A stretch of DNA of 64,000 nucleotides from Paramacrobiotus metropolitanus (taxonomy: Eukaryota > Tardigrada > Eutardigrada > Parachela > Macrobiotidae): the NCBI RefSeq assembly GCF_019649055.1, contig NW_026570324.1:434001-498000 (forward strand), written 5' to 3'. The position numbers and the translations under genes were made by a program. This document shows positions 31,678 to 62,090 of this stretch, in pieces; positions within the stretch are counted from its first letter, which is position 1; each line of letters begins with the position of its first letter. The notes beneath the pieces are model-generated. The model saw only the letters and a list, made by a program, of their open reading frames with translations, searched no databases and was not told where the DNA came from.

Positions 31678-31679
31678 TA

Positions 31680-32527: not shown

Positions 32528-33745
32528 TGCCTCTGGGCGGGAATCCGAGCTCCTGCGAAGGATGCTCCGACTCGGTACCGCACCAGTACCGCACAACTCT
32601 CCAGTCGGACCCAATGTGGGGTCGCTGGTACGCGTCCTCTGGCAGTGGGAGTCCGGTGTCTGGTCGACCGTCCCTTCTTCACTTCCGAACCCATGAGTGG
32701 AAGCCACTCACGGCCGAAAGATCCGGAAGCCGCTCGGGCGTTTCGTTGGACCGGTGGTGCTTCTGTTGGCTGGCTTCTTGCTTCTGTTGGCAACGGAGAA
32801 CAATGTGAAAGAAAAGTGTAATGAAAGTTGTATACAGCGCGAAAGAAAGTATGAAGTAAAGTTTAATCACAATTCCAGTGAGCAAAAGGGGTTACAAAAA
32901 CAGATCTGTTAAAGAGATCGAACTAGAAAAATACAATTCCGTTTGTTAGGAGAAATACTAAAAAAATGCAAAAATCTGTCCGGGGGTCCTATTCCGACTA
33001 GGATGACGTCCACGGGGCAGTTGAGTCTCCACGGGGTCTCCTGTCCACTTTCATCCGGTAAGTTGGGTCCGGGGCATCGGTTCCCGGGTTACCCGTCGTA
33101 ACCGGTTAAATTCACCGAGGTCGGATAAGCACGGTTAAACACTTACGTCCGACCCGTATCCGTCCGTTCGGGATGGAGAGGCACTGTTGCGGTTGCAAAT
33201 GCCGAGGCATCCTCTCTGGATGGGGAATAGAACCGAGGTCGGTTTGACCAAGGTCGGCCTACCGGTAAGTCAACCGGCGGCTAGGGGAATTCGGCTATGT
33301 TCCGAATTGCTGAAATCCAGGTCGGAGAAAGCTGTATGTGAGTCATGCGGCCTGTGTGGTCGTCATGTACAGCAGTTCCGTTCAAAAGTGGTCGGTTACA
33401 ACCGTTCAATCTGCTACCACGAGCCTGGTTTGTAGTAATCCGAGTCGAACTGGCTCGAAGGTCCGGTCGGAATTTATGAGTTTTGGCGATGGAAGTGTCC
33501 AGTCGACTTCCATCCAATCTGTTCCGTTGTTATCCGACCTTCTGTCGAGGTCGGTTATCCTATCCGTCAGTGGTCGACTAGGGTTAACCTGCAATGACAT
33601 GCCCATGTGGGGCTAAACAAGTTCCTTCAAGTCGAATTCGTCCATTGCAGATATTTATCGTTCTTTTTCCGTCATGTTGACTAAATTGCCGACTTCCGAC
33701 ATCTCTTGATCTATGGTCGACTTCGGGAGGTCGACTTCGGGAGGT

Positions 33746-33768
33746 CGGATGGACTATGTTTCCATCCG
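33746..33768. repeat. hairpin, loop CTATGTT
   Basis: 8-bp perfect stem CGGATGGA around loop CTATGTT, in the 3' non-coding region. Confidence 0.8.
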
Positions 33769-33936
33769 CCCGAAGGTCGGGTGTTTCTGTTAGGAGGTCG
33801 GTTCTCGACTTCTGAATGCCTTTGCCGACTTGTTGTCGTACCCTCCCGACTTCTATGCAGTCGGTTCCGACCTCGGCTTGAGGTCGGATATCCATGTCCG
33901 AGTTCGGAGGTCAGTTATTTTCCGACTTCCCCAGGT

Positions 33937-33959
33937 CGGATAAACTTTGTGTCTATCCG
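33937..33959. repeat. hairpin, loop TTTGT
   Basis: 9-pair stem CGGATAAAC with a single A/C pair (a G-U on the element RNA), loop TTTGT. Confidence 0.8.
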
Positions 33960-34889
33960 CCGGGAATGTAAGTTCTTCCACTAAGAGGTCGATTTCGTAC
34001 TTCTGGTTGGTTTTCCGAGCTGTTGTCGCTTACTTCCGACCTCCATCTGGTGGTTGTCAACTTTATTTTAGGAGTTCTGTGCGTTCGGCTACAGTTGGCC
34101 GGGTCCGTGGTGTCAGGACATCCCACGGTCAGTTCGGACTGGCAGAAGGATGTTCGGCAGCACAACTCCGTTCCTTCTGTTATTTCTGACGTGAACTCCA
34201 GGTCGGATCCGAGCTACTGTTGAGGTCGGTCAATCCGAATAACTTGCCTCCGGGTCGCCAAGTCCTGTGAGGTAGGAGTTTCTTGGCATCTGTTGGCCGG
34301 TTGACTGGCGTTTCATCATGCACTGCGCTCGCTCACAACGCTAAGGGTCTTTGTGGCCCCGGTTGACGAGACAAGCTCTTTGGTTTAAAGTTCATGCACA
34401 TGCAAGTCCCTGGGGTCGTCAGATCCGATTCTTCCATTCTGTTTTGTCGCGAACCTGTGACGCCTAGCCGCTTCTGTTGGGGGTAGACGACTCACGTCCG
34501 CGGGGGAAATTTTTCTTTGCCGCTGACGAAGACCGACTGGCCGGTACTGTTGCGGACAGGTGGTCATCGTCATCGGGATTCGTTACGGGGATGCAGATCA
34601 AGTATTCTAACTCGGTCTGCCTAGGATGTTCCATTGAAGTCATGGGGAAGCAGGTCGCGGCGGAGTCGTTGGTACACCAGTATCCAAATCACCGTCGCTG
34701 TTCCTCTTCAGGGAATGGCAGCACGTTCGAAGACGCGCGTAGTCGTGGTCACCGGTGAATCGGCTGGTTTACCCGATATCATCCGGGGGAGACTGCGGTT
34801 GATCTCCAGGTACAGAGCCTGTAGGTCTGGGTTCAAACGGAGAATCCGGTTGAATTGCCACGTAACTACTGCCGGCTTCCATCCATTCT

Positions 34890-34940
34890 CCATAGTCGAC
34901 TTCTGTTGGCCGCTATGGTCGACCTGTGTGGTCGGCCATA
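34890..34940. repeat. two overlapping, mutually exclusive hairpins
   Basis: 34890-34918 folds with outer stem CCATAG, one bulged T, inner stem CGAC and loop TTCTGTTG. 34914-34940 folds with an 11-pair stem TATGGTCGACC (one G-T) and loop TGTGT. They share CTATGG, so only one can form at a time. Confidence 0.8.
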
Positions 34941-34979
34941 ATATCGATCTCTCGTTGGTCGAACTGCCATCATTTCCAA

Positions 34980-35000
34980 AGCCGACTTGTATAGTCGGCT
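34980..35000. repeat. hairpin, loop TGTAT
   Basis: 8-bp perfect stem AGCCGACT, loop TGTAT. A close relative with loop TGTGT lies at 35540-35558. Confidence 0.8.
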
Positions 35001-35758
35001 CGCACAACCGACCTGTGTGGCCGGCTGGTGCAGCTATGTCCGCAATGTCTCCAAGTTGTGGGTGAGGTACAAAGTCGACCTTTGTGGTCGGCTCAAGTAT
35101 ACATGATCAAGTCCGAGTTTTCCTGCACTGTTGGCGGCTCGGCTGAGGGATTTCCGCTGTTTACAATGGTGAAGGCTGCTCGGCTACCCGGTTCCGAAGT
35201 TGGCCACGGGTGCTTGGCAAACATGGCGTGGAACGCGCGCAGCGACGTGTTCCGCGCCATGTTAGCGTAATCCTCTCGGTTTCTTCTCCGGAGTCGGTTG
35301 GCCGGAGTAATCTCCATGTAGCGCGGATTGGGGCTTCTGTTGGCTCCGATGGTCGCAGAACGTGGTTGACGATCTGCTTTGTTAGCAGATGTGGTTACGA
35401 TCTGTTTTTGCCAAGCTGGGGAACTGGGGTCGGTTGCCCAGTTCGTTCCAGGGGATTCCTTGGGGGACGTACCGGTACGGTGAAAGAGCCGAAATACCCG
35501 GGTCTAACCACGCGTTTCCGGGTCCGACCAAAGAATCCGGCCGACTTGTGTAGTCGGCTTTCTGGCAAAATCGTCGTTGACGTCCGCCGCGTACATGGTT
35601 GGTCATTTTCCAAAGAAAAAAAGAACTAAAGAGAAGTGTCCATTCCGAAGTCGGTTCTCGCCAGCGCTGTTTCTCAGCTAAACTGTTTCTCAGTCGGAAG
35701 GTCGGTTCTCGACCGTGCCGTTTCTCGGCAATGCCTCCTTGAAGTTATTCCAATGGGG

Positions 35759-35786
35759 GATCGAGTTCCAGTGTGGGAACTCGATC
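35759..35786. repeat. 11-bp perfect hairpin abutting the last stop codon
   Basis: Stem GATCGAGTTCC, loop AGTGTG; the base after it (35787) is the end of the TAA stop of the 719-codon ORF, so on the sense strand the hairpin begins immediately after the stop. The same loop recurs in the leader hairpin at 61850-61867. Confidence 0.85.
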
Positions 35787-37946
35787 TTAACTGAGTGGGA
35801 CTTCGACGGGTTTGTCGCCGCCGAAGTAATCTTCTTCTTCATCGTCGTCCGGGCCAGATCGGTTATGTGGCCGTATATTCGGGTCCCTTGGTTTGCAAGT
35901 CGCCGGGCCACTCCGCTGAGACATCTCGTCAGTCTCATCCGTTTCTTGGCCTGGGCGCTCCGCCCTGCTCTTCCTCGATTCCTTAGCCGCTTGTTTTCGG
36001 AGTCGCAACGCATATGGTCGTACGCCAGGTGCTATGTCATCCGACATGCAAGGTTCGTAGGGCGACGAGTTAAATCCGCTAGGCAGAGTCTTCTTTTCAC
36101 GGTACCAGCTAATAAACCGAGTTGCGTCGTCGCTGGGATCTATGTGATCCTCACGAAAGGCATACTTTGTCGCATACCGTTCGTGGGTGTACAGCAAGTC
36201 ACGCATCCAGACAGCTAGGATAACACTTCTCATCGGTGTGCCGAGTTGGGCTACGAGGGTCTCCACAGCCGCTGGTATCATCTCGTTCTGGTACAAGCCG
36301 TATAATGTATAATGGCAGTAATAATTGCCAAGTCGAGCTGCGAAGATAAATCGCAGGAATGCCGTGACACCGTCTTGGGCCATGTCGACTTCTCCTTCTG
36401 GAAGGTACTGGGTTAAATCCAGTGCTGCCCGAGCCGCGGTGATTACGAAGGCTGGGTGTGCGTCCGTAATGACAAACTGGGCAATACTCTCCAACTCATC
36501 ATGGGAGTATTCCCGAGCTCCTAGTTGGCTCGCGCGTGTTCCGTCCGGGCTGTACAGCGGCACGTTCAGTAAAACCGGATCGGTCATCGACGGCAACGCA
36601 TTCGACCGGGTATATGGGTGTTCAACGTTCGGCGCTGTGTGCGCGTTCATGTTGAAGTCGGATCGCCACTGGTGTTGCTCAAACAGCGTCTGATATCCGG
36701 ATCGGACGAGGAATTGACGAAGGTTTTCTACCATCCGCCAAATTTGTGGTCGGTTCCGTTCCTCATAATTCATGACGTTCATGATGTGGTTTGTCCGTTC
36801 GGTGGGGTGTAGCATAACGACCTCGATTCCTTGTTGTCGGGCGCGGTCGTAACGAGGGTCTTCTCGGTTTGGCACTTCCACTTGTGGCAGTTGTGCCATC
36901 TGGTCGGCTACGTCGACATCCATTTGCTCTTGTTGGGCTGCTGGTTCAGCTTGGACTTCAGCCGCCGGTTCCACTTGTTGAGCTTCCGGCTGCTGTTCGG
37001 GTGGGACAAAGTTGCGTTTCGACTTATTTGTTAAGTCGACCGTAAGTCCGATACCCGTTTCTCCAGATCCAGTCCGTTTTCCTGGTGGAGCTCTGGTCGG
37101 TTCTTTTCCGGCTTGTCGGATTACGGCCCGTTGCTCTTCGATTCTGTCTCGAAGATCGACCGGACCGATCCGGTGTCGAAGGTCATGTCCTGTAAGATTC
37201 TTGCTGGATCGGCGCTGCTGTTGTTGAGCCGCCGGTTGGGTTCGATTTCCGGGTTGGGGGATCTGCTGAGGAACAGTTGGACGAGCCTGTGTGACTACTG
37301 GCGTTGCCCTGTGTGGGATTGCCATCAACTGTTCCTGAGTTGCCGGTGTGAAGGTAACTGGCTGTTGAGTTCCGTCCGGCATATTCATCATCATCGTTAT
37401 AGATGCACCGGTCATCGGTCGGTTCGGATCTCCGACGAAGACATCGCGTATTGTGGGAGTTAATTCTCCGACTGTCGGGAGACCCTGTGTGGGTGTCTGT
37501 ACCCGAATCTTTATTTCCGGTTCGAAATCGGTCGGTGGTGGATGGACTAGCATTGTGGCGATCTTCCTATCGACCTCCTTTATCTTCTTCTGGTCGTCAA
37601 GTTGACGTTGCAGGTCCAGCATCTGACGGTACTCGAACAGCCTATTTGTTAGGACTGGTGGTCGAGTTTCTTCCCATCTCGGGTCGCGAGCTCGTTGTCG
37701 CTGAATTGTAGCCAGATTGTCCTGTTCATATGACTCTAGTTGGTTAATCAGGTATTCTCTGCCGGCCAGGTACCGGTATGCGCTCAAGTTGCCAGCGACA
37801 ACGTTTAGGTAAAGTGCCGCCGCCTGAGCACGGTGTTGCGCTCCGGTGCCGGAAATTCGTTCGTTCGTAAAGGATACGATGCACAACGCGCAGGGCATTC
37901 TGTTGTTGTCCCTCGTCGCGTTATCCATGCACTGTTGGCAGTCCAC
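35787..37946 (-). CDS. 719-residue accessory protein of giant element (ORF11)
   Basis: Last ORF of the element. The N-terminus has a CxxC...CxxC pair (CQQCMDN, CALC), possibly zinc-binding, then a helical region (residues ~30-120). A Pro/Gln/Thr-rich disordered middle follows, with a Gln-Gln tract. The C-terminal globular, helix-rich domain (about 390-650) begins near WRMVENLRQFLVRSGYQTLF and is followed by an acidic tail (DDDEEEDYFGG). No similarity to envelope, RT or chromodomain proteins that I can see. Separated from the 2589-codon ORF by 276 bp. Function unknown; a structural or host-interaction role is only a guess. Confidence 0.75.
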   Translation of the reverse strand: MDCQQCMDNATRDNNRMPCALCIVSFTNERISGTGAQHRAQAAALYLNVVAGNLSAYRYLAGREYLINQLESYEQDNLATIQRQRARDPRWEETRPPVLTNRLFEYRQMLDLQRQLDDQKKIKEVDRKIATMLVHPPPTDFEPEIKIRVQTPTQGLPTVGELTPTIRDVFVGDPNRPMTGASITMMMNMPDGTQQPVTFTPATQEQLMAIPHRATPVVTQARPTVPQQIPQPGNRTQPAAQQQQRRSSKNLTGHDLRHRIGPVDLRDRIEEQRAVIRQAGKEPTRAPPGKRTGSGETGIGLTVDLTNKSKRNFVPPEQQPEAQQVEPAAEVQAEPAAQQEQMDVDVADQMAQLPQVEVPNREDPRYDRARQQGIEVVMLHPTERTNHIMNVMNYEERNRPQIWRMVENLRQFLVRSGYQTLFEQHQWRSDFNMNAHTAPNVEHPYTRSNALPSMTDPVLLNVPLYSPDGTRASQLGAREYSHDELESIAQFVITDAHPAFVITAARAALDLTQYLPEGEVDMAQDGVTAFLRFIFAARLGNYYCHYTLYGLYQNEMIPAAVETLVAQLGTPMRSVILAVWMRDLLYTHERYATKYAFREDHIDPSDDATRFISWYREKKTLPSGFNSSPYEPCMSDDIAPGVRPYALRLRKQAAKESRKSRAERPGQETDETDEMSQRSGPATCKPRDPNIRPHNRSGPDDDEEEDYFGGDKPVEVPLS

Positions 37947-38222
37947 CGTGAAGGCTTCCGTTCGGGGCTCTTCCGTACGAGTCTTCCGTACGAGTCCGTA
38001 CGAGTCTATAGTTTACACCCTATGATTACTACGGTCGGGCCAGGTCGGTTCTCGAACTGGTCCAAGACGCCTTTGTGGTCGTCTAATGAGGTAAGTCGAC
38101 TTCTGTTGGTCGATGACGCCTATGTGGTGTCAATGGGAGGAGGTCGGTTATGCCCCTCTCCCAACGCGTTCTGCGTTTCCTCATTCCCGTATAGGCACTT
38201 CTGGCGACCCGAGCCGACTTGC
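37947..38222. repeat. inter-ORF spacer with tandem repeat and three hairpins
   Basis: The 13-mer TTCCGTACGAGTC is repeated in tandem at 37971-38006 (two full copies plus ten bases). Three hairpins follow: 38065-38084 (loop TTTGT, bulged T), 38096-38113 (stem TCGAC, loop TTCTGTTG) and 38114-38132 (stem TGACGCC, loop TATGT). Confidence 0.75.
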
Positions 38223-41200
38223 TTAGTGCGAGTCGGCCAACTCGGTCGATTGTGCCGAGGTCGGTCGTTCCTTCGGTAAATGTCCATGTCGATGATTTGA
38301 TGGATTTAAGGCGATGAACCGTTGACCACCCTGGGTTTTATCGGTATTCGTGGCAAATTGTTGTTGGTAGAGTGCCTTCGATATGACGAATTCTAGTTCG
38401 TCGTCCAGGGAGTACTTTTTCCGTCCGGCAATTGTGTCCGGTTTGGGCTTGTATTTAGGATCGACCAACTGCGGTTCCATTGATGTCCACTGGAACTCAA
38501 ACCGCGCTATGAGTTGGTGGAGTATTTCTCCGCGGGTAAGTCCGTCGGGGTGCCAGGACATTTCCATGCACGCTTCAATGGCGTGTATCCATCCTTCATA
38601 TGTTGAAGGAGCCGGGTCTTTCTTAGCCGGTGGGAACTCGTAGTACATCCGCTTTCCGCTGGTATATGTACGTATCAACTTCCCTGCATGGTATCCTAGG
38701 TCGCAGTAGTGTCGCACGTTGTTCTGGCTAAGTTGTCGCCAATCGCCCGTCTCGTCTACCTTCCAGTGTTGGAGGAGTTTGAAGGCGATTCTTGGTGTGG
38801 CAAACTTCGGTCCCCGTGTGGCCAAGGCCCTCAAAGCGGCGAATGTATACATCCATCCCGCATCATATTCCGAGACACTCGGCTTGGGTTTCGAAGCCGA
38901 TTTAATGCCGGTATACTTCAACCTAACGTTGACCAGTGGGGGAATGTCGTCTGGTAGGACTTCTATCATATCCTCATGAAAGTCCGAGCGAAGTGGTTGG
39001 TGGTCGGAGTCGGGCGTCAGTGGTACTCGTTTACCGTACTGACGAGGAACGTATACTCCGCCATCGTCTTCGTTACTCTTGGAGTCGTCGGCCTTGTCGC
39101 CGCTATCCTTGTCTTCGGGTTGTTTAGCCGGTATCTCCGGTTCGGCCTGCTGTTGAGGTGCCGAGCTCGACGGTGGTGGAGGTTTACCGTTTCCGTCGTC
39201 GTCGTCGTCGTCATCCTTCGGCGATCCATTTCCGGGTGTTCGGAAATCTTCGTCGTCGTCGTCGTCATCGTCTTCGGTTTCTTCCTCGGATGACGAAATC
39301 AGCTCGGATGACTTCGGTTCCTTTTTCTTAGCCGGCTTAGTCGACTTCGTTTTAGTCGACTTCGACTTTCCCTTCTGTTGGGTCGAGTCTTCTGGTTCCG
39401 GCGAAATTTCCATAGGCGAGGACGGTGGAAGTGACTGTACGTCCTTCGGTATGAACCGTCCCTTCGCACTCCGAGTTGGTTTGGCTGTGCTTGCTCGTCC
39501 CGCCGGAGCCGATGCCGTGCCGACATATGTTGTCGGTTCGTGCGGTGCTCGAGGTCGGGTTAGGGCTTGTACTCGTCTTTGTGACGACTGTGCAGCCGTT
39601 CGAGCTATATGCAGCAAAGTGGCTGCATCTTCCGACGGTTGTTCGTTGGAATCGCTGTATTCTTCGGTCGGTTCCGTGCCCGCCGGAGGCTTGTCCGTGT
39701 TGACGTAAGACATCCGGAGGTTGAATTCACGCCGATGTTGTTCCGGTATGAAGTTTGGCACGGTATACCGAACTGGCACGTCGCGTTCTGCGTTAGTCGT
39801 CTGGAGAGTGTGTTGCTCGACCAGGAGCGCGATTCGTTCGCCTATCCTATACGTGATAATTTCATCGATGTTCCCCTTCTTATCCATGTACATCACGCTG
39901 TATACACGGGCAATTTGGACTAAAGTCGATCCACGGGGATTCCGGATGTATCCGATACACCGTGCGATTCTAGTCGGTGTGTCGTCTGCATTTCTTGCTG
40001 CTGCACTTTTGAGTGATTTGATGAGGTCCGGTTGGATAATTTCGGCCATCCGTCCCCATTGTCGGTGGACGGCGACTGCTAATCCGTAATCGAGGGTCCA
40101 GGCGACGATCTGCATCATGAGTTGATGCGTTAACCACTTTCCGGTTTCGCCTTCGACTTGTATGTTATTCGACAAGTCTTGTACCAGGGATTGGTAGATG
40201 TCCCTGCCATTTTCCTTGGCACTCTGAATACTACGGACGACTTCGACATGTGCGCGGACTGTGCGGATTAATGTGTCGACCGGGTCCTCCGGCTGTTCGT
40301 CCGGAAGACGCTCGCGTACATCGTCTGGAGCTGGCCACTGGGATTCGTCGGTGTCCGCTCCATGGTTAAACATTTCTTTCATGTCGCCTTTAAATCCTTC
40401 ATAGGGATCCCCATCTCCGTGGTCGGAGATTGAATCCTTATCTTCAATGTCCGAGGCCTGGTCGGATTCTACATCGGACTGTTGCTTGGATGTTGAAGGC
40501 TGAGATTGTTCAGGCGGAGTCGGTGGTTTTGGTGGGTTTCGTAGCCGACCTCCTGAAGTCTTAGCCGGCTTTGTGCCGATTCGTTCCATGACTTCCTTAA
40601 ATTTCCGTTCGACCGCCTCCTTGTCGTGCGGTTCTTGAGCCTTCTCCTTCTGCTCGGTCCTTTGTGGGCCGGCATCCGAAATATCCAAGTCGTCAGATGA
40701 CTTATGCCGCTTAGCCGGGTTGGGCTTCGGCGTCTTAACCGTGGAGTCCGACTGCGGTTTAGCCGGCTGCTTGACTTCCGACTTGGCTGGTTTCTTCTGG
40801 ACTTCCGTCGCTTGCGGCTTGGCAGACTGCTTTGCTGCTTCCTTCTTGGCCTTCCGTTTATCCTTATGGGATTTCGTGGAGTTAGCCGAGTTGATGACCT
40901 TCATGTCCTGATCGTCGTCGATCTGAACGGAAGGTTGTCTGGTCGGAAGGGGAACTTTCATTTTAACGACGGATGGCTGTACCGTCTTCTTAGTCGACTT
41001 GGGTTCCGGGGCGGTGGCTTTGCGCTGAGTCGGCGTAGCCTCTTGTAGGGCTTTAGGTCGACTCCTTTCCGCCCGGTAATGTTCTCCCATTCGTTTCATA
41101 ACGTCAGCCATCTTATCGGTAAGTCGGTCGTGGTCACGCCGAGCTTCCGTGGTGTTTCCGACTATACTAGCGCGTCGGATTCTCAGCGAGTGCCAGAGTT

Positions 41201-49237: not shown

Positions 49238-49262
49238 CTTCGGTTCAGTTTTGTCCGCGTCA

Positions 49263-52169: not shown

Positions 52170-52456
52170 CTCTNNNNNNNNNNNNNNNNNNNNNNNNNNN
52201 NNNNNNNNNNNNNNGGGTTCATCTTAATCGGTTGTGCGCCCTGGACGTCAATGGTATGTGTTACCCCTTTGACGTCCCTGTAGGGTTTCTTCGAGGTCGG
52301 AAATACGGTCCGGTAATCCCATGCAACTGCCTTCAGTTTGGCTAATTGCTCGTCGGTTAAATTTTTACCGAAATTCATGGAGTCGATGATTCTTCGTCGC
52401 CTCTTGGGATTCCGCGTCTTCCTGCTCGACTTCAGCCGTGTTGACTTTCGTGTCAT
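52109..52456 (-). CDS. pol: Pol, N-terminal part of RT (cut by gap)
   Basis: Carries the segment that opens Ty3/gypsy RT domains (LTDEQLAKLKAVAWDYRTVF ... THTIDVQGAQPIKMN). It runs into the N-run at 52214-52174. Beyond the gap this frame is wrong and the frame starting at 52169 is right, because the N-run (41) is not a multiple of three. The two belong to one protein. Confidence 0.8.
   Translation of the reverse strand: MTRKSTRLKSSRKTRNPKRRRRIIDSMNFGKNLTDEQLAKLKAVAWDYRTVFPTSKKPYRDVKGVTHTIDVQGAQPIKMNXXXXXXXXXXXXXXXRCSTKESSNRHRLHGASPSS
52174..52214. other. assembly gap (41 N) inside RT
   Basis: Unresolved bases between the two parts of the reverse transcriptase. The RT family consensus predicts roughly 15-17 residues here, so the true gap is close to the printed length but must differ enough to restore frame. 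Confidence 0.95.
52243..52277. repeat. two-part hairpin, loop TGTGT, in RT N-terminus
   Basis: Outer 9-bp perfect stem GGACGTCAA, small internal loop, inner stem GGTA, loop TGTGT. Confidence 0.8.
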
Positions 52457-53979: not shown

Positions 53980-54536
53980 TCCGTCAATGTTGTCTCACAG
54001 ATGGTACACTGATAAGGTTTATCAGTTTCCTCCAGGATTACGTCGTCCTGGGGTTTCGCCGGGCTACTCACGAATTGCACTGTGGTCGGAGTATGCTCCT
54101 CAATTGGCGGCAATGGGTCGGGAACATGTCGCGTTATAGCGGTGTCTTCGCCATACCGTTGCCAGAATGCGGTCGTTGACGATTCTCCGTGCAACTGAAC
54201 TCGCTGCATATAGGCAAAAAGTTGAAAGCCTAGTTCCTGGCAGGGCATTTCCAAAGGTCGTGGGACGGGGAGTCCGTATTCCATGTACTGTCGATGGATC
54301 GGAATTCGTTCATCTTCCCATTCCCATGCTTCGTCCTCTATGTCATTCATGAGGGCGATTACAGGTTCACACATTTGTTGTGCGTCCCGTATTTGCTCGT
54401 AAGTTACCGCTCTATTCTGTCGCAGAGTGGTCGCTCTGGTATCGGGATAGACTGCACTACCGTCTTTCCTTCCGGTTGTTCCGGAATTGGAATTGGTGTA
54501 AGAATAAAAGTGAACTTCGAATGCAGGTAGTCGCAT
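53964..54536 (-). CDS. accessory frame between protease and ORF5 (ORF4)
   Basis: 190 codons in the -1 frame relative to the protease ORF, which it overlaps by about 130 nt. The likely coding part begins after the overlap (VTYEQIRDAQQMCEPVIALM) and ends with CTICE before its stop. I see no canonical slippery heptamer in the overlap (the best, A GGA AAG, is weak). Domain unknown. Confidence 0.5.
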   Translation of the reverse strand: MRLPAFEVHFYSYTNSNSGTTGRKDGSAVYPDTRATTLRQNRAVTYEQIRDAQQMCEPVIALMNDIEDEAWEWEDERIPIHRQYMEYGLPVPRPLEMPCQELGFQLFAYMQRVQLHGESSTTAFWQRYGEDTAITRHVPDPLPPIEEHTPTTVQFVSSPAKPQDDVILEETDKPYQCTICETTLTEWYGP

Positions 54537-56116
54537 CCGAGTAGCACTGGGATATCCGCTTCGGTCGGCTGGACGTGGAATGTGTGGTGGCTAGTAAAGC
54601 CCTGCATTGTTACAGGTGCCGTACAGCAGTGTGACACTACGAAGGCGACTTGTCCGCCCACTCCAAGTATTTTGGTGTAATGTCCGAGGGGTTGCATCGT
54701 TAAACCGTTCCTCTCGCAAAACCGTTGTTCGATGAGCGAAGTCTCCGCTCCGGTATCTAACATCGCCATTGTGGGCGTGGATCCGACTTGGATTTCATGT
54801 GTCCAAGCTCGAACTGTTTTCGGTTTCTTATGCGTTCCCTTCTCAAAAGTTACTTCCCGTATCGTTGGTTTGATGGGAATTAGTGACACCGGTCCGTGGT
54901 CGGCTGGCTGTTGAGTTGAACTTTGTGTAAGTTCGACTCCGACTTCACCCGCTTCCTGTACCTCAGGTCGGTTAGCTACTCCGTCCTCCGGTAATTTGGC
55001 GGTTCGGAACCGTTGTGCCTGTGCCAGTATCCGTTCCTCTATTGAGGTGTTTGTTGGCCTCAATTTCGACCACATATAGTCGAGGTTCAGGAATGTTCGA
55101 GAACTGGCTATCGTTCTAGCTGGTCGCTCTTTTGGCTGGAAGAGGTCCGCTTCTCCTGGCCGAGAGTAAACGGGTACCTGTGCTCCCAATGGGACTGTTT
55201 CCCATTCTTCGACTTCTCCTTCCGATTCTTCGGTGAGGTCGATTGCTGCCATTGTCGCAGCGTATCTATCCGTTGCGCGTGCGGATGATACATTGGGGAA
55301 GTTTCTGTTGCCCCTGTGCGTGAATCGGCGTCCCGGTCCTCCGCGTCTTGGGCATCGTCTGGCCTGCTCGGTTGAGTTTATCCTCACCGGCAATCCGGTC
55401 CAACTTCCGTGGCCGGGCCGTACTACGTCACTTTGTGTGACGGACGGCGCAGTCGCTTTGTTCGCACTGCTTAGGTCGGGCAATTTCTGCGTTCCGACCT
55501 CCGACGTTCCAGCTTCGAATCGAGGGGCTGGGTCGGTCGCCTCGAGTGCTTGTTGCATCCCGGGCCACGCTTCGACGGTGCCATTGTTGGCGTACACGCC
55601 GAACTGAGCGGCTAACTTCCGAGCCGTCTCCGCCTCCTTTGTGGAGGCCGATATCGCCTTTGCGAAATCCTCCTCGGAGCTGTTTTCGTTCAGCCCGAGT
55701 AGTTGGAGGATGGTGGCTACCTGTTGGTAGCCTTCCTTTATCGTTGTAGGAAAGTTCGGTTCGTTCCGAGCTTCCGATGTTCCAGCGCCAAGTCGATGCG
55801 CTGGGTCAGTTCGGCCGGGCATTTCTTGCGTTCCGGTCCGGATCTCGATTTCTCCATTGTTGATGGAAATTCCGAGTTCGGCTGCCTTAATTCGAGCAGC
55901 TTCTGCCTCCTTTGTAGAGGCGGACAGTGCCGTAAGAAGTTCGTCTTCCGTGCAACTGATCCAATCCAGTCGTAATGTGTTTAGGACTGTTACGATCCGT
56001 TGTTGTAACGGATCTAAGTTCGGCTCGTTCCGGGAGGTTGGCGGCTGATTAGTGGGGTTATCCTTGTCCGGTGGTTCGGTCGGATGTTGGAGGTCGAATG
56101 AGTCACCGGAACTCAT
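54404..56116 (-). CDS. pro: aspartic protease ORF with internal duplication
   Basis: 570 codons. Residues ~28-115 and ~117-205 are a tandem duplication (both have ASTKEAE.AR..AA..G and end GAGTSEA/EAGTSEV). The retropepsin domain is at about 435-560: active site LDTGAE near 450, a hydrophobic ILGVGG flap-like segment and VLLGCDYL. Such enzymes cut Gag and Pol into mature proteins as dimers. The ATG (56116) overlaps the gag stop (ATGA), but the frame is entered earlier by the -1 shift signal at 56134-56128. Two hairpins with loop TTTGT (55632-55648, 55903-55923) sit at the same place in both halves of the duplication. Confidence 0.85.
   Translation of the reverse strand: MSSGDSFDLQHPTEPPDKDNPTNQPPTSRNEPNLDPLQQRIVTVLNTLRLDWISCTEDELLTALSASTKEAEAARIKAAELGISINNGEIEIRTGTQEMPGRTDPAHRLGAGTSEARNEPNFPTTIKEGYQQVATILQLLGLNENSSEEDFAKAISASTKEAETARKLAAQFGVYANNGTVEAWPGMQQALEATDPAPRFEAGTSEVGTQKLPDLSSANKATAPSVTQSDVVRPGHGSWTGLPVRINSTEQARRCPRRGGPGRRFTHRGNRNFPNVSSARATDRYAATMAAIDLTEESEGEVEEWETVPLGAQVPVYSRPGEADLFQPKERPARTIASSRTFLNLDYMWSKLRPTNTSIEERILAQAQRFRTAKLPEDGVANRPEVQEAGEVGVELTQSSTQQPADHGPVSLIPIKPTIREVTFEKGTHKKPKTVRAWTHEIQVGSTPTMAMLDTGAETSLIEQRFCERNGLTMQPLGHYTKILGVGGQVAFVVSHCCTAPVTMQGFTSHHTFHVQPTEADIPVLLGCDYLHSKFTFILTPIPIPEQPEGKTVVQSIPIPERPLCDRIER
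54913..54939. repeat. 11-pair hairpin, loop TGTGT, inside protease ORF
   Basis: Stem GAGTTGAACTT with one G-T, loop TGTGT. Confidence 0.85.
55994..56014. repeat. 8-bp perfect hairpin, loop GTTGT
   Basis: Stem GATCCGTT, loop GTTGT, in protease ORF coding sequence. Confidence 0.8.
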
Positions 56117-56134
56117 CGACCTTGGGCGTTTCCC
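56092..56134 (-). promoter_or_regulatory. -1 ribosomal frameshift signal between gag and protease
   Basis: On the sense strand the gag frame reads G GGA AAC (56134-56128), a classical X XXY YYZ slippery heptamer in the correct phase. Six bases later an 11-bp stem begins (GGTCGATGAGT, 56121-56111; loop TCCGGTG; one bulged T on the return strand, ending 56092). The -1 frame is closed by a TAA at about 56142 just upstream and continues into the protease frame. The gag stop lies 15 nt after the heptamer. Confidence 0.9.
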
Positions 56135-57705
56135 GGGGAGTTACTCCGAGCCGGCCCATTGTTGGGTGGCGTCGAGTTTAACGACTGGCGGGGCGGCAAC
56201 GGTTCTCTGTATGCCGGGGAACCTTGTCGGTTCCCGCCGCTATTGTTGCGGTTTCCGCCATTCCCCCGCCCGGGCGACCGGTTTCCATTGCCGGGGCTAC
56301 CCGAGCCACCAGCCTGTTGCTGGCGAAGACGTGGCGGTGGCACGATGTCCTTCCAGAAGGGATTCACCGAGCCTACCGGGCCATTCGTCGAGTATCGGCG
56401 GTACCAGTCGTCGTACCACCGAAGGTTCGGATTGTTATCCGAACCATAGATGCAGCGCGACTCGTCATGGTTATTGAACATGCAGTGCCTGCACCGGAAA
56501 GTCTTATCCTTCGTCCACTGGAAGAAGGCCGCTTCCATCTTATCGACGTACGATGTTCCTTGCCGAGCACCTTGTTGTGCCTGGGGAGGTCGGTTGCCTT
56601 GTGGGCCGCCGCCTCCGCCGCGGTTAGGGAAGTTCCCACGGCCGCGGTTCCCGCCGCCGCGCCCTTTTCCGCGACCATAACCTCCGCCGCCGTATCCTTG
56701 TGGGGGATACTGTCCGTAAGCGGAGTACCCCTGGTTCGAGTTTTGTCCGTAACCAAAACCTGTGTTGTTTTGGTTACCGCCCGAACTATAACCTGGGCCG
56801 CCGTAGTTGTTAACGGGGGCTCCAACTCCAGGTGCTGGGGGATTCAGGTTCGCTGCTGCCGCGCCTGCCCACGTCTGTTGCTGGACTGGTGCTTGTTGCA
56901 CCGGTGGCGTCGGAGCCGGACTTAGTTGTCCGTATTGTGCCGTTGGAGTCTGGTATCCCGGCATCATGTGTGGCTGATATCCGGTCTGTTGTGGTATCGC
57001 CGGAGGTGGAGTCGGGACAGGTGCAGGTGTTGCTGCCCGAACTCTAGCGTAGTCGCTGTCACGCGACTTGCGTACCTCGTACATTTCCTTGCCGTTGACG
57101 AAGTCCCGTAAATAGTCGCGGAACTCGATCGGCGTTGACGGCATCCTGATTTCCAGGGCCGCCCGCAGTTGGGGCTCATGAACGTTCTCCTTAAGGTGGT
57201 ACAGTATGATTTGGTCTGTGACCGTCGGGACTTGGGACTTCATGAACATCATTGCGTCGTAGTATTGTTCCGGCGTTTTTTCGCCGAAACGGAATATCCG
57301 TTTGTTAATCCTGGATATCATGTTCACTTCTTTGTTTTTGTCCGCAAATCTCTGCTCGAATTTGGTCAGCCATAAGTTGACTGGCCATCCGCCGAGTGGT
57401 TCTCCGGCGGCTTCGAGAGTATGCCATTCTTTCGCTTGGCCGTCCAGTTCGGCTATCAAGTCGGACATGAAGGTCTGATCGTCTTCATACCATCGTTGGG
57501 CTTGACGATACAGGCTTCGGATTTGCTTAAGCCACCCATGAAGTTTGGTGTGGTCCCCGTCGAACGGTGGTAAGGGTTGCCGACGTCCGTGGGCTATTGC
57601 TCGTACCAAAGCAACGTGCGCTGGGTTTTGTTCCAGGGGAGTTGGGTGTGCCGCCGGCGCAGCTTGTTGTGCAGCCGGGGCGGGTGGTGGATTGACGTAT
57701 GGCAT
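56113..57705 (-). CDS. gag: Gag with CCHC zinc knuckle
   Basis: 530 codons from ATG 57705; the frame is open a further ~360 nt upstream, overlapping the end of ORF1 in the -1 frame. The capsid-like helical region (residues ~45-200; KLHGWLKQIRSLYRQAQRWY) is followed by a Pro/Gln-rich and Gly/Arg-rich RNA-binding stretch (RGGGNRGRG) and a CCHC knuckle C-x2-C-x4-H-x4-C (CRHCMFNNHDESRC, ~402-415). It builds the particle and binds RNA. The last codons hold the frameshift signal to protease. Confidence 0.88.
   Translation of the reverse strand: MPYVNPPPAPAAQQAAPAAHPTPLEQNPAHVALVRAIAHGRRQPLPPFDGDHTKLHGWLKQIRSLYRQAQRWYEDDQTFMSDLIAELDGQAKEWHTLEAAGEPLGGWPVNLWLTKFEQRFADKNKEVNMISRINKRIFRFGEKTPEQYYDAMMFMKSQVPTVTDQIILYHLKENVHEPQLRAALEIRMPSTPIEFRDYLRDFVNGKEMYEVRKSRDSDYARVRAATPAPVPTPPPAIPQQTGYQPHMMPGYQTPTAQYGQLSPAPTPPVQQAPVQQQTWAGAAAANLNPPAPGVGAPVNNYGGPGYSSGGNQNNTGFGYGQNSNQGYSAYGQYPPQGYGGGGYGRGKGRGGGNRGRGNFPNRGGGGGPQGNRPPQAQQGARQGTSYVDKMEAAFFQWTKDKTFRCRHCMFNNHDESRCIYGSDNNPNLRWYDDWYRRYSTNGPVGSVNPFWKDIVPPPRLRQQQAGGSGSPGNGNRSPGRGNGGNRNNSGGNRQGSPAYREPLPPRQSLNSTPPNNGPARSNSPGNAQGR
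56749..56777. repeat. 11-bp perfect hairpin inside gag
   Basis: Stem GTAACCAAAAC, loop CTGTGTT (contains TGTGT). Confidence 0.85.
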
Positions 57706-60700
57706 GTGACCTTGTTGGTCTTCGTACGCCTCCTGTTGGTAGGCATCGTCGTCATGGCCTTCGTATCCGTCCTGTTGCGGATGCCGAGCCTGAGCCTGGT
57801 CTGCGTGACGAGGCTGTTGCGGCTGTCCTCCATACTGTTGTGGAGGGGCGCTCGGTTTTGTCTCGGCGCCTGCGGGTAGAATCCACTCGGTTGGTCGTGG
57901 ACTCTTCCATACCGGTCGGGCTGTGTTCCCTGAGCCGGCATCCGACTCTGTGTAAGTCGGTTTGGAGGCCTCCGGCCTTGTTGATCGGAGCTGTCTTCTC
58001 CGTTTCGTCCGTCCTGCTGCTGGTCGGCCGTGTTGAATGACCGAGCTCGCCCGCGTTCAAGGTCGAACTGCGGGTTCTGGCGGAGCAAGTTCGGGTTGGA
58101 ATTCGTCCGTGGTGGCCGGTATGCCTCCATGCCAGGTCTTGGTGGCTGGATTGGGAGACGTTCGGCGTTTGTCGTCCGGTCTCCTCTGGCATTAGGTACC
58201 GGCGCGTACATTGTTGTTCGCGTCGCGTACGAGGTGCTGGTGTATGCACCGGCCGACGTCGTCGTCGGCACGTTCGACGTTGGTACTCGTGGTACCGCGG
58301 TCGACGTATTGTGTTCCGGTTCCGGAGCACTCGGTACTGTTGGTGGCTGTGGGATTGTTCCCACACTCGGGTCAGTGGTTATGACTCCGACGAAGTAGGA
58401 GGTGTTGTTCTCCTTCTTCACCATTTCTTGAGATGGGTTAATACCCCACAGGATGTCACTGATTGTTCGTGACGGCTGTTGATCCTGTGCCATGGACGTC
58501 CGGTATGAAGGAGGTTCAGCCCGACTTTGCTCCCGGTATGAAGGGAGTTCAACCTGGCTTTGTTCCAGGTGTGAGGTAAGTTCGACCTGGCTTTGTTCCA
58601 GGTGTTTCTTTTCCTCCCTCAGGCACCGTGTTTCGGTGTCCATCTCGTCCATTTGCCTCATCATTTCCGTGAGGTTGCGGGCGGCTTGTTCGCCGAATTC
58701 GTACAGCTCGGTTTCACGGGCCTCCAGGTAAAGGATGCGGCTGTGTTGCGCCTCGTTTACCTTTTGGGCCTCGTTCAAGTTGTATTCCAATTGGGCTCGG
58801 AGTTTTTGTTCCTCCTTAAGGACTTTGTTCAGTCCATGGACCTGGTCGGCTAGCTGAGCGTTTGCCTCCACTAGGTCGACATCGGCCGTCCTTTGGTTAG
58901 GAAAGCCCATGTCCCGAGCGTTCTCATCGATGAACCGTCGTCCCATTCTGGTGAAGACAAGTTCGATTTCCGACTCGAGCTCGTCAACTCTGTGCGTTAG
59001 GCGGTCGATCTCGTCGTCGGCCTTCTTTAATTCCACCACATATCTATCGACTTCGTTTCGATAGACCTCGGCCTCTTCATTGGCCGTATTGAGTTGCTGG
59101 TGGAACGCTCCGGCTGCCTGCTCCGACTCGACCGATGCAGTTTGTACATCGGCCAGGTCTTTCTGGGCTTCTTCAAGCGCTTTGTTCGCTTCGGCGAGTT
59201 CTCGGTTTAACTCGTGGACCGCATCCATAGATCGATCCAACGTGCCTTTAAGTGTAGTGACTTCGTCGATGTCGTGCCGACACGGTTGGTCGGTACGCTT
59301 CAATATGGCATTCAGCCGGTCGATTTCCCGTTGTTGGATGGCGATGCCTTTGTTGGCGTCGGCCATTTCGCGTTCGCATTTGCTTCGTTCGAGCCGATGG
59401 GTATCTTCCGAGTTTCGGAGCGATTTTCCCGCCGAGTCGATAATTCTGTCTGCCAAAGCGATCTGAGTGATCAATCTACGGCATCTCGAGCGGAGTAGGT
59501 CGACGTCTACGATCCTTTCGGGCGGTGTTGCCGCTATCCACTTCTCGGCCGTATATTCGAGTGAAGTGGCCTGATGAGTGAGGTCGTCCTTGTTGGACCC
59601 CAGTGGCATCGTGAAGAATCCGTCCGCACTATTCGGTCTTGACGCTGTTGTTGCGTCAAAGACTTCGTTTGTCGGTGACGGAGTACTACCGAGTTCGCCC
59701 GTTTCAAACATCGGTGGTGACGATCTGATTTTCAGGTCGACAGGTCGACTTTGTGTCGCCTTAGTCGACTTCACCGTTTGTTGAGCTTCAGTTACTCGAG
59801 TCGACTCGCGTCCGGTTGGCGAAGGTCGGCTTAACGGTGAGATAACCTGTTCACTGGGTGCTGGTATGCTGGTCGGCGATCCGGTTGGGTGAGGGCCGCT
59901 TCGTGGCGGTACCTCGGAATCTTTCGTTCCATTTGGTGATTTGGTTGGCTGGACGGTCGCATCCGACTTTGTGTCGGGTGGTTGCCGTTCCAGGCTAGTC
60001 GATTGGCTGTTGCCGACTTCCTTCTGTGGATCCGCCGTGGTCGGTTTCGGCTGACCGACCTTCACAATTGGTGAAATCCTTCCGACCTGTGTGGTCGGTT
60101 GGACATTGCCGACTTCTGTTGTCGGTTTTTCCATTCCGGTCGAGGTCGGTTGTTCGGCCTCCCGGGTTTGTGGCAGGTCGGCCTGCTGTTGGTCGACTTC
60201 TTTTCCCGGAGGTCGGTCGACCGTTTGTTGGTCGGCCACCATAGTCGGTTGTTGTTCACCGACTTCCTTGGTCGGAGATTTTCGCTCGGCCTGTGTGGTC
60301 GGCGATTGCCTTCCGACTTGGTTAGTCGGAATGTCCGTGTTGGGCGAGGTCGGCTTCAGCACTCCTACCGTCCTGTTGGGTGATTGCCGTCCGAGCTCGG
60401 TTGCCTTTGTGACTACCGAGCCATGAGCTCTGTGTGAGCTCGACTCCAAGTCGGCATGAGACAATGTGGTCTCAGCCTGCAGCTGTTCCACATCCACCCC
60501 GGTCGGGTGGGACGGGGCTGCTGTGTCAGCTGGGGCTTCCAGGAATGTTTTATCCCGGGCGTCCTCGAAACTGTCGTCCGATGTCGGATTCGAGTCGGCT
60601 AGGAGGATGCGTTCGTTGCGTCTCTCCTTTGCTTCGGCCGACTTAGTCGAGTCGGTGGAGGATGGCTGACTTTTGTCTTGACCGGCGTACCGGAGTGAGT

Positions 60701-60779
60701 ACTTCCCGGTCATATTCGCACGCCGAGAATAGTCCGTGTTGAACTTTCTCGCGTATTGATCCTCTCGGGGATTCGACAT
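57594..60779 (-). CDS. coiled-coil protein (ORF1)
   Basis: About 1061 residues from ATG 60779 (MSNPREDQYARKF); the upstream TTG start is not needed. Residues ~90-400 are disordered, Thr/Pro/Gln-rich and full of PTTQ/PT(T/K)EV repeats. Residues ~430-760 form a long coiled coil (RLITQIALADRIIDSAGKSL ... LEEAQKDLADVQTASVESEQ). Then comes a tandem HLEQSQVEL repeat (DNA 58501-58605) and a Gln/Arg-rich tail. The last ~80 codons look out of frame, while the -1 frame there looks coding and leads into gag. This suggests an ORF1-gag fusion by frameshift, or an indel around 57840-57870. First ORF of the element; possible particle or RNA-binding role. Confidence 0.7.
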   Translation of the reverse strand: MSNPREDQYARKFNTDYSRRANMTGKYSLRYAGQDKSQPSSTDSTKSAEAKERRNERILLADSNPTSDDSFEDARDKTFLEAPADTAAPSHPTGVDVEQLQAETTLSHADLESSSHRAHGSVVTKATELGRQSPNRTVGVLKPTSPNTDIPTNQVGRQSPTTQAERKSPTKEVGEQQPTMVADQQTVDRPPGKEVDQQQADLPQTREAEQPTSTGMEKPTTEVGNVQPTTQVGRISPIVKVGQPKPTTADPQKEVGNSQSTSLERQPPDTKSDATVQPTKSPNGTKDSEVPPRSGPHPTGSPTSIPAPSEQVISPLSRPSPTGRESTRVTEAQQTVKSTKATQSRPVDLKIRSSPPMFETGELGSTPSPTNEVFDATTASRPNSADGFFTMPLGSNKDDLTHQATSLEYTAEKWIAATPPERIVDVDLLRSRCRRLITQIALADRIIDSAGKSLRNSEDTHRLERSKCEREMADANKGIAIQQREIDRLNAILKRTDQPCRHDIDEVTTLKGTLDRSMDAVHELNRELAEANKALEEAQKDLADVQTASVESEQAAGAFHQQLNTANEEAEVYRNEVDRYVVELKKADDEIDRLTHRVDELESEIELVFTRMGRRFIDENARDMGFPNQRTADVDLVEANAQLADQVHGLNKVLKEEQKLRAQLEYNLNEAQKVNEAQHSRILYLEARETELYEFGEQAARNLTEMMRQMDEMDTETRCLREEKKHLEQSQVELTSHLEQSQVELPSYREQSRAEPPSYRTSMAQDQQPSRTISDILWGINPSQEMVKKENNTSYFVGVITTDPSVGTIPQPPTVPSAPEPEHNTSTAVPRVPTSNVPTTTSAGAYTSTSYATRTTMYAPVPNARGDRTTNAERLPIQPPRPGMEAYRPPRTNSNPNLLRQNPQFDLERGRARSFNTADQQQDGRNGEDSSDQQGRRPPNRLTQSRMPAQGTQPDRYGRVHDQPSGFYPQAPRQNRAPLHNSMEDSRNSLVTQTRLRLGIRNRTDTKAMTTMPTNRRRTKTNKVTCHTSIHHPPRLHNKLRRRHTQLPWNKTQRTLLWYEQ
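58552..58603. repeat. duplicated hairpin, loop CTTTGTT
   Basis: 58552-58570 and 58585-58603 carry the same 6-bp stem ACCTGG and loop CTTTGTT, one in each copy of the ORF1 tandem repeat. The same loop with other stems recurs at 44056-44070 (CCCG), 51555-51569 (GCAG) and 59175-59191 (AAGCG). Confidence 0.8.
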
Positions 60780-60842
60780 TGTTGTCAAGTCGGGTCGACT
60801 CTGGTGGAGCCTCAAGGGTTTAATCAGTTAGAAAGAGAAAGT

Positions 60843-60870
60843 CGAACAATCTTCTGTGTGAAGATGTTCG
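60843..60870. repeat. 11-pair hairpin, loop TGTGT, in leader
   Basis: Stem ATCTTC continued after one bulged A by CGAAC, loop TGTGT; 64 nt upstream of the ORF1 ATG. Confidence 0.85.
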
Positions 60871-62075
60871 GCAAAATCAGGAACGTCTTTTTTTTCGGGA
60901 ACTTCCAAGGGTCAGGAACGTCCGGTGAGATGTTGTTGTTGTTGTTGATGTGTCTGTTGGTGACTCAGTACACAGGGTATTAATATACAGTACGATGGTA
61001 CAGTACAGTACGTAATAGTAGTACGGTGTAGTACGTCCTATGTTACTGTGCTGACCAGTGTGACGTAACAGGTTAAGTGGTCTTGCACTTCTGCCTACGT
61101 CACAGAATGCGAGCCGCGTGCAAAATTTGCAAAAAACGATGAATCACGCCTATGTTAAGCTATGGGAACTTTCCCCTGCACGCTGATTGGCTGCCTCTTA
61201 AGTACTGATAAGCGGTCGTTATGACGTCACAAGGAAGTTCGAGAATTTTCGCGCTATTTTCCGCAAGAAAAACAAATTATTTTAGGTCGGCTAGAAAGTT
61301 TATCTAGTCGGATTTTGAAATTTTTAACCGTTAAAAATTAGTTTTGTTAATTAAGAAAATTTTCTGGTGGTCGAAACACCGTTAGAAATCAAAATGAAGA
61401 GAATTTCCGACCTGTTGCCGGTTAGCCTTTGTCTGACTGTCTAGACAGGATCGTTGACCTAGCAGGTCGGTTCTCGACCAAAAGCAAAATTCCGAGTCGG
61501 TTTCTCCGTCAGAAATTACTTTTTAACCGTTAGAAAATTTAGATCTACGGCTAGAAATAGTTTTCTACCGCTAGAAAATGAAAAGCCGACCTAGTTTCGG
61601 CTGAAATCGACCTACAACCGTGACTTTACCAGTGTCGGTGTCGGTGTCGGTTCCACTCGATTTCCTCCGTCCGAGGTCGGAAATCCGTCGTTTCCGAGCT
61701 GAAATCCGCAAGTAAAGTTGCGGGTCGCTGTTCAAAGCGAAGGTCCCCGTATTATTGGATTAATCCTATCGCTCTGCAGACTCTCGTTCGAGTCTGATCC
61801 GTCAGTTGGGAGAAGAAAATGTCCGTACGTTCGGGAAACTGAGATTCCGCTCTTCAGTGTGGAAGAGACCAAGGAACTGTGCTCACCAGCTGGGTAGGAA
61901 TCACTTCAGTGATCCCCGTTTTCCTCAGCTGTAAGACGATGCGACCGTTCTGATCAAAGTCAAGGGCAGAGATTGCTTCAGCAATCAATCTGACAGTGAC
62001 TTTCAGGTTCTTCACGAGTTCTCCGTAATTTGAGCCTTCACCGTCTCCTCAAAGGGTCCGTTGGAAGAAAACCAA

Positions 62076-62090
62076 ACGATTCTGCTACCA
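62076..62090 (-). promoter_or_regulatory. primer-binding site
   Basis: Immediately after the 5' LTR the sense strand reads TGGTAGCAGAATCG. The first ten bases fit the 3' end of animal initiator tRNA-Met (CUGCUACCA), a primer also used by yeast Ty3. Beyond ten bases the match fails. Confidence 0.7.

Follow-up and report, generated by a model that had tools for sequence, protein, structure and literature searches.

We analyzed a 64,000-nt stretch of Paramacrobiotus metropolitanus DNA (the window), in which positions 32090–62525 are a single Ty3-type long terminal repeat (LTR) retrotransposon of ~30.4 kb. The sense strand of this element carries more than a hundred short hairpins with diverse stems and a shared loop, in which the trinucleotide ACA stands in a fixed register. 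Conservation of the loops and compensation in the stems show that the hairpins are maintained by selection in the copies examined. An earlier note on this DNA had described hairpins with shared loops and unrelated stems and proposed that a loop-reading RNA-binding protein selects them. The observation is confirmed and sharpened here and the interpretation is plausible, the function being one that we infer.

Hairpins with ACA loops on the sense strand

The earlier note gave the loop as TNTGT, which is the antisense strand; because the genes, the reverse transcriptase (RT) and the primer binding site (PBS) sit on the minus strand, the RNA loop is ACANA, not UNUGU. All of the hairpins that it located fold (11 of 11 coordinate pairs). 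Between 32531 and 62089, perfect stems of at least 5 bp enclose a TNTGT loop 23 times, compared with a mean of 0.2 and a maximum of 2 in 100 dinucleotide shuffles. With interrupted stems allowed (score of at least 4), 64 of the 243 TNTGT words form hairpin loops, compared with 2.92 (maximum 7) in 60 dinucleotide shuffles, and 43 of these hairpins score at least 5 (shuffles 1.00, maximum 3), in agreement with the original estimate of about 40. Within open reading frames (ORFs) there are 51 TNTGT hairpins, compared with 4.53 (maximum 10) in 100 synonymous-codon shuffles that keep amino acids and codon usage fixed. Hairpin numbers and loop bias thus lie far above both the dinucleotide and the codon-preserving shuffles that the earlier note had suggested as a check. 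In-register pairing is raised to 6–8 bp away from the loop; with one arm slid by +1, pairing is 0.29–0.33 at three positions and ~0.25 elsewhere, and the excess is nearly gone. The suspicion that composition is a poor explanation is borne out by the 46 of 64 TNTGT hairpins that lack the words CGAC, GTCG, CCGA and TCGG. Hairpins occur in all frames, as had been stated, but codon phase 0 is preferred among TNTGT words in hairpins (32 of 56, compared with 33 of 139 outside hairpins).

The TNTGT hairpins belong to a wider class, which we examined as perfect hairpins with stems of at least 5 bp and loops of 4–9 nt in the same region. When loop trinucleotides were counted with no prior choice among them, ACA came out far ahead, in 112 of 264 hairpins compared with 14.3 (maximum 25) in 60 shuffles. 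Over the element as a whole, the word ACA is no commoner than expected (774 occurrences, 787 expected). The 112 hairpins hold 111 distinct ACA positions at a mean spacing of 266 nt, and their polarity is fixed, with 112 on the sense strand and 4 on the antisense strand. ACA stands at offset 0 in 5-nt loops (25 cases), offset 1 in 6-nt (7) and 7-nt (17) loops, and offset 2 in 8-nt loops (14), where 0.5–0.7 are expected per class. Most heptaloops are an ACANA pentaloop with one base added on each side (A at the fifth position in 13 of 17), and loops of 6–9 nt contain ACANA 22 times, compared with 2.5 expected. This fixed register looks as if a single surface reads stem and loop together. The shared loop of the earlier note therefore stands, although its core is not TNTGT alone but ACA in its fixed register. 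Among the smaller loop families listed there, TTCTGTTG, CTTTGTT and ATTGTG/AATGTG contain ACA when read on the sense strand, and they join this class, while TTTCT and TTCA fall outside it; closure by C and G, described as nearly universal, is found in only 17 of 25 pentaloops with first-position ACA.

Within ORFs, ACA-loop hairpins number 96, compared with 15.2 (maximum 26) in 60 codon shuffles, and hairpins of all other loops number 109, compared with 96.1. The ACA class accounts for 81 of the 94 excess hairpins in ORFs, in sums taken per ORF so that a hairpin in an ORF overlap may be counted twice.

We also built a covariance model from 31 hairpins. These came from the 33 of 43 TNTGT hairpins without a transversion-type mismatch in the inner five pairs, two being left out for an ungapped alignment. 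Of the 66 matches in the window, the best 48 all fall inside the element, LTRs included, and all share the plus strand; the first match outside has an E-value of 1.2. Only the absence of matches elsewhere is informative, because the model was built from many of those same hairpins. No Rfam family matched at its gathering score in 32000–62600, and a known Rfam family was rejected as the identity of the hairpins.

Conservation and covariation in related copies

We compared the window copy with six further copies (88.8–94.2% identical), fetched in pieces of up to 10 kb. These carry 105, 103, 114, 117, 107 and 63 sense ACA-loop hairpins (the last in a 19.5-kb version of the element) and, in the same order, 8, 6, 11, 5, 6 and 3 on the antisense strand. 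In the stems of ACA hairpins, double changes that keep Watson-Crick pairing account for 54 of 326 changed cells, at 28 pair positions. In the element's non-ACA hairpins, selected with an identical stem rule, such changes make up 23 of 557 cells at 13 positions, and in random Watson-Crick pairs 222 of 5315. Eleven non-ACA hairpins that overlap ACA hairpins, and aligned cells with gaps or insertions, were left out. The difference between ACA and non-ACA hairpins is significant by cells, which are not independent (Fisher p = 7e-10), and also when stems are collapsed to distinct variants (15 of 129 compared with 6 of 195, p = 0.004). The compensatory changes between copies that the earlier note had named as a check are thus present, above the level in non-ACA hairpins. 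Together with the diversity of the stems, they are evolutionary evidence for its claim that the stems are free in sequence but paired.

Loop conservation was assessed at 69 TNTGT sites against an expectation corrected for base and codon position. Observed and expected changes are 5 and 21.1 at T1, 21 and 26.3 at N, 18 and 33.9 at T3, 12 and 27.1 at G4, and 6 and 23.6 at T5; codon-matched conservation is therefore roughly 4-fold for T1 and T5 and roughly 2-fold for T3 and G4. An uncorrected figure of 10-fold proved too strong once codon-matched, because many loop bases are non-synonymous sites. Outside hairpins the TNTGT word is not conserved (287 changes at the four fixed bases, 282.7 expected). 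In the wider ACA set both As are conserved, with 28 and 14 changes compared with 46.3 and 47.2 expected.

A different word, GGTCGG (CCGACC on the sense strand), occurs 107 times between 32531 and 62089, compared with 21 times for its complement. Outside hairpins it has undergone 107 changes where 200 are expected (75 places), and in non-coding parts 12 where 40.3 are expected (16 places); four near-cognate words change at 1.3–1.7 times expectation. GGTCGG/CCGACC may be a second dispersed cis motif.

The hairpin set extends to more distant relatives. Downstream of pol in a member of an 88% subfamily (L051), 12 TNTGT hairpins are found compared with 0.78 (maximum 3) in shuffles, with none in the opposite sense, and the element part holds 15 ACA-loop hairpins compared with 3.2 (maximum 8). 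The 3' part of this copy (1370–4720) is an array of diverged repeated modules with three kinds of hairpin, CCGAC-CACAGAA-GTCGG and variants (12), ACCGAC-AACAG-GTCGGT and variants (8), and CCGACC-TC[AG]-GGTCGG, whose loop is without ACA and which makes up most of 27 pattern matches (5.4 in shuffles). Some array hairpins are nested in an outer TACC.../...GGTA stem, the arms of which seem to co-vary. Between the aligned parts of this copy, the region of a 2589-aa ORF is missing. At the site equivalent to 35547 in the window, L051 keeps the hairpin: one G-C pair has become A-T by a double change, and two other pairs are A-C on the sense strand and G-T on the antisense strand; at 48945 the hairpin is kept and its closing pair is changed. 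In a relative that is 68% identical over 800 nt (L053), the hairpin at 43766 is kept with antisense-strand wobbles.

No clear excess of ACA-loop hairpins was seen in the 31.9 kb of window flanks (11 and 17, compared with 11.8 and 10.8; standard deviation 3.3–3.4) or in 5 kb beside pol of a distant LTR family of the same genome (L052, P0003), which has 3 compared with 1.8 (maximum 4) and no TNTGT hairpin. A general property of flanking DNA or of this second LTR family was accordingly rejected. Across 30 LTR loci, 4 TNTGT hairpins lie in 39.7 kb of outer sides (both strands), compared with 48 in 39.8 kb of inner sides. A single form of the hairpin, CCGACYTNTGTRGTCGG, occurs 342 times in the genome and once when read backwards.

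Architecture of the element and individual hairpins

The element is bounded by direct repeats whose ends were read from the sequence, the 3' LTR at 32090–32527 and the 5' LTR at 62091–62525 (both minus strand), which are 97.5% identical (440 alignment columns) and have TGT...ACA termini. Directly after the 5' LTR, 62072–62090 (minus strand) reads TGG..., and we take it, on established knowledge, to be the putative tRNA PBS. No target-site duplication is evident, the five bases at 32085–32089 and 62526–62530 being different. Since all ORFs longer than 300 aa inside the element lie on the minus strand, the sense RNA is the minus strand.

In sense order, ORF1 (57594–60815; 1073 aa) is an orphan with coiled-coil-like matches below threshold and 22 ACA-loop hairpins (6.8 per kb). 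It is followed by a Gag-like ORF (56113–57705; 530 aa; 7 ACA-loop hairpins), an aspartic protease ORF (54404–56116; 570 aa; Pfam gag-asp_proteas, 3e-08; 11 hairpins) and an RT-RNaseH-integrase ORF assigned by Pfam (49263–52169; 968 aa; 8 hairpins, 2.75 per kb). Three ORFs of unassigned function follow, of 634 aa (46524–48428; 8 hairpins), 2589 aa (38223–45992; 28 hairpins) and 719 aa (35787–37946; 4 hairpins). In the 3' non-coding region (32528–35786), 10 of 32 perfect hairpins (loops of 4–9 nt) have ACA loops.

The order is that of a Ty3-type element, with protease upstream, RT-RNaseH before integrase, and a Gag-like ORF with a CCHC knuckle. We call the last of these Gag-like from its position and its single knuckle at residue 404; its match to Pfam DUF4939 (E = 0.082) is below the cut-off, and a PDB sequence search returned no match (best E = 0.3). 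The best PDB match of the RT-RNaseH-integrase ORF is Ty3 Gag-Pol (7q5b, E = 2.8e-87), and at least 50 genome stretches match the RT-integrase protein at 88–100% identity. Several long ORFs, including that of 2589 aa, have no Pfam match above the cut-off. The relatives found, one protein for the 2589-aa ORF and two for the 1073-aa ORF, are all in P. metropolitanus. A search of viral contigs found no relatives.

The sense strand is A-rich and T-poor along the whole element (32531–62089); plus-strand AT skew is about -0.2 to -0.36 across most of it and near zero in the flanks. The only run of N in the window (41 N, 52174–52214) lies directly upstream of the pol ORF. Three tandem 33-nt units in ORF1 (58500–58605) hold two ACCTGG-AACAAAG-CCAGGT ACA-loop hairpins. 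Just outside the 3' LTR, 31677–31923 is a 60-nt inverted repeat with arms 88% complementary and 127 nt apart, and at 6331–7566 (minus strand) a weak Gag-like ORF (DUF7083 and a zinc knuckle, both below the Pfam cut-off) is perhaps part of another retroelement.

Individual hairpins are given here in the sense reading, all on the minus strand. The covariance model finds an ACA-type hairpin in the 3' LTR (32279–32297, E = 0.79) and its match in the 5' LTR (62277–62295). Hairpins with the loop ACACA include CGACC-ACACA-GGTCG at 34920–34934 (the inner part of 34914–34940) and again at 45614–45628, where a compensatory change lies further out (45612/45630) in copies C27 and C94; GCCGACT-ACACA-AGTCGGC (35540–35558), which is retained in L051; GAACTT-ACACA-AAGTTC (54918–54934); CCGACC-ACACA-GGTCGG (60082–60098); GAGCTC-ACACA-GAGCTC (60425–60441); and ATCTTC-ACACA-GAAGAT (60849–60865). 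The loop ACAAA is found in CGACC-ACAAA-GGTCG (35076–35090), TCGACTTA-ACAAA-TAAGTCGA (37019–37039), TCGTC-ACAAA-GACGA (39573–39587), GGATC-ACAAA-GATCC (42941–42955), AACCC-ACAAA-GGGTT (43761–43775; retained in L053 with antisense wobble pairs), CGTCAC-ACAAA-GTGACG (55426–55442), CCGAC-ACAAA-GTCGG (59963–59977) and GCCTCC-ACAAA-GGAGGC (55632–55648), in which the outermost G-C has become A-T, a compensatory change, in C27, C94 and C122. The loop ACATA closes GGATC-ACATA-GATCC (36136–36150), TCCTTCA-ACATA-TGAAGGA (38592–38610; identical in all six other copies), CCGACA-ACATA-TGTCGG (39520–39536) and AACTC-ACATA-GAGTT (45163–45177; compensatory changes in C27, C7 and C94). ACAGA is the loop of CTCATC-ACAGA-GATGAG (43222–43238), GGATC-ACAGA-GATCC (44435–44449), CCACC-ACAGA-GGTGG (45779–45793, the inner part of 45773–45799, with a compensatory change in the outer part in C69) and CGACT-ACAGA-AGTCG (48940–48954; compensatory change in C69, C27 and C7). 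Other loop sizes are represented by an 8-bp hairpin with the 7-nt loop AACATAG (33746–33768), an 11-bp hairpin immediately following the 719-aa ORF, with the 6-nt loop CACACT (35759–35786), a 9-bp hairpin with the tetraloop AACA (56424–56445) and an 11-bp hairpin with the 7-nt loop AACACAG (56749–56777).

Candidate readers of the hairpins

A strand polarity of 112 to 4 means that just one of the two strands is read, in single-stranded form, and the genomic RNA is the simplest candidate. We tentatively favour a reading in which dispersed stem-loops on the genomic RNA are recognized by an RNA-binding protein, most likely Gag, for packaging. The genomic RNA would present ~100 short stem-loops across ORFs, non-coding ends and LTR, with stems free in sequence but base-paired and with 4–8-nt loops displaying ACA at a set distance from the stem, the ACANA pentaloop being the best form. 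The protein would require the stem, read the loop and bind the sense RNA at many sites; the element's own CCHC-bearing Gag ORF is its most likely source, and with many weak sites Gag could pick out a 30-kb genome from among host RNAs, condense it and package it, as is proposed for the dispersed packaging signals of satellite tobacco necrosis virus (STNV) and phage MS2. Three features put Gag first: the sites were found in the element's own family but neither in the flanks nor in the other LTR family sampled, they span the whole RNA, ORFs included, and they resemble the signals of STNV in logic and loop. The interpretation of the earlier note is partly supported: the shared loop on free stems holds in the window copy and six others, its strand assignment is corrected above, and the loop-reading protein and its packaging role are candidates.

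Several observations weigh against this reading. In interrupted stems, sense G-U and A-C mismatches are enriched alike (12.1x and 12.0x; other mismatches 3.7x), and single changes tilt toward sense G-U without significance (77:105, compared with 134:257 in non-ACA hairpins, p = 0.077). At the homologues of 35547 and 48945 in L051 and of 43766 in L053, the non-Watson-Crick pairs are G-T on the antisense strand and A-C on the sense strand. With wobble enrichment symmetric and the homologues leaning to the antisense strand, these pairs do not mark the sense RNA as the functional strand. At the C in the middle of ACA, 47 changes are seen where 49.3 are expected (0.95 of expectation, compared with 0.85 outside hairpins), so this base is no better conserved than outside hairpins. 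Non-ACA hairpins also exceed dinucleotide shuffles (188 compared with 136.3, maximum 169; whole element, loops of 3–9 nt), so that the ACA class is not the sole structure present. Turnover is fast: L051 keeps two of four flank-alignable TNTGT sites (the loop word is lost at 33296 and the site at 49103), and of three sites compared in L053, 43766 is kept, 43330 keeps only the inner 3 bp and 43606 is lost. In a system of many weak sites, individual sites could be lost in this way and the set as a whole survive.

The main rival to Gag is a host RNA-binding protein that reads ACA loops, the sites having been gathered for export, localization, translation or stability or as a decoy. All of the motif data fit a host reader equally, and the extra ORFs on a single long RNA would make post-transcriptional control plausible. 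Such a protein should, however, also serve other RNAs, and no clear excess appears in the 31.9 kb of flanks or the 5 kb of L052, a sample that leaves out host mRNAs. We regard a host reader as unlikely, though a serious competitor.

Fixed polarity suits either of two complementary strands, and the functional molecule might instead be the first-strand complementary DNA, an antisense single-stranded DNA in which TNTGT hairpins organize or protect 30 kb during reverse transcription. The wobbles do not favour RNA, and antisense G-T pairs are found at the distant homologous sites and, in most TNTGT hairpins of L051, at the closing position. In the L051 3' array, however, wobbles lean to the sense strand (14 G-U compared with 10 A-C, background fraction 0.37, p = 0.033), in a count whose repeats are related rather than independent and which includes some unrelated pattern matches. 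Predicted stem pairing in 155-nt contexts is also slightly better for sense RNA (mean 0.87, compared with 0.79 for antisense RNA; 68 of 69 sites, the remaining one containing N). A role for the DNA strand therefore seems improbable to us.

Two further explanations dispense with a specific reader. Generic compaction or shielding of the RNA, with ACA merely a good loop, would suit an A-rich, U-poor sense strand with dispersed structure and the excess of non-ACA hairpins over dinucleotide shuffles. Hairpins with any stable loop should then have become more frequent, yet ACA, in its fixed register, is found in 81 of the 94 excess hairpins in ORFs; within TNTGT, T1 and T5 are conserved and N changes at a nearly neutral rate. 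We consider this explanation very improbable. Template switching by RT within hairpins, copying one arm from the other, would make the compensation mutational rather than selected; it would produce Watson-Crick double changes with no G-U preference, as seen, and could account for the same non-ACA excess. Such copying should affect all hairpins, however, whereas non-ACA hairpins in ORFs are little above codon shuffles (109 compared with 96.1) and compensate at the background rate (23 of 557, compared with 222 of 5315 for random pairs), and loop conservation would be left unexplained, which makes it a remote prospect. A chance, composition or coding artefact has a negligible claim: the element is rich in GGTCGG-like words, but chance and composition are rejected by dinucleotide shuffles and off-register controls, coding constraint by codon shuffles and codon-matched loop conservation, and the common GGTCGG word as sole cause by the 46 of 64 hairpins without common words, and the hairpins recur in the six other copies.

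Returning to Gag and packaging, a more specific version is possible, if somewhat doubtful: an assembly code in which more than 100 ACA-loop hairpins per RNA, written through synonymous codons across all of the ORFs and read by Gag, would act with the second dispersed word CCGACC, so that many weak sites in place of a single psi signal would serve to recognize, fold and package the 30-kb RNA. The nearest known logic is that of small RNA viruses. One STNV study describes a coat protein that reads AXXA loops regardless of stem sequence, at ~30 copies per genome, the loop but not the sequence of the stem being what assembly requires (PMC3593212). Like the dispersed packaging signals of STNV and MS2, the hairpins here combine one loop motif with many copies and free stems along one RNA, and in the passages concerned the STNV loop (ACAA, AXXA, in 4–6-nt loops) resembles the ACANA, ACAA and AACA of the element (PMC3593212; PMC6281560). 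Unlike those viral RNAs, the element is a 30-kb LTR-retrotransposon RNA with more than 100 sites, a fixed ACA register, strong support for its sites from shuffles and covariation, and a protein reader that we infer. The hepatitis B virus pregenome is a reverse-transcribing genome with proposed dispersed signals, in a different type of virus (PMC6281560).

Among LTR elements, Ty3 shares the RT-RNaseH-integrase order and its Gag-Pol is the closest solved relative of the element's pol; the element is about six times longer than Ty3 or Ty1 and has several further long ORFs. The available text of a Ty3 RNA structure paper (PMC11381356) contains neither 'packaging signal' nor 'hairpin loop'. The planarian Burro is also a giant LTR element (>30 kb), and the passages available on it mention no hairpin system (PMC11410931). 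Literature searches aimed at giant LTR elements or at retrotransposons of P. metropolitanus returned nothing, and one aimed at dispersed packaging signals in retrotransposons gave a virus review and a modelling study. Dispersed loop-read hairpins are of a kind known from small RNA viruses, and such a system in LTR retrotransposons was not found among the literature matches listed.

Dispersed packaging signals are debated, since small viral genomes give degenerate motifs and thin statistics. The element offers more than 100 sites, a sharp loop rule, an internal control in its non-ACA hairpins, controls at the codon level and, across the genome, dozens of copies that carry pol. The idea of dispersed packaging signals thereby becomes directly testable and extends to LTR retrotransposons, in which the sequences needed for packaging are ill defined. 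If the reader is instead a host protein, the hairpins would reveal that an RNA pathway of the tardigrade host has been hijacked on a large scale.

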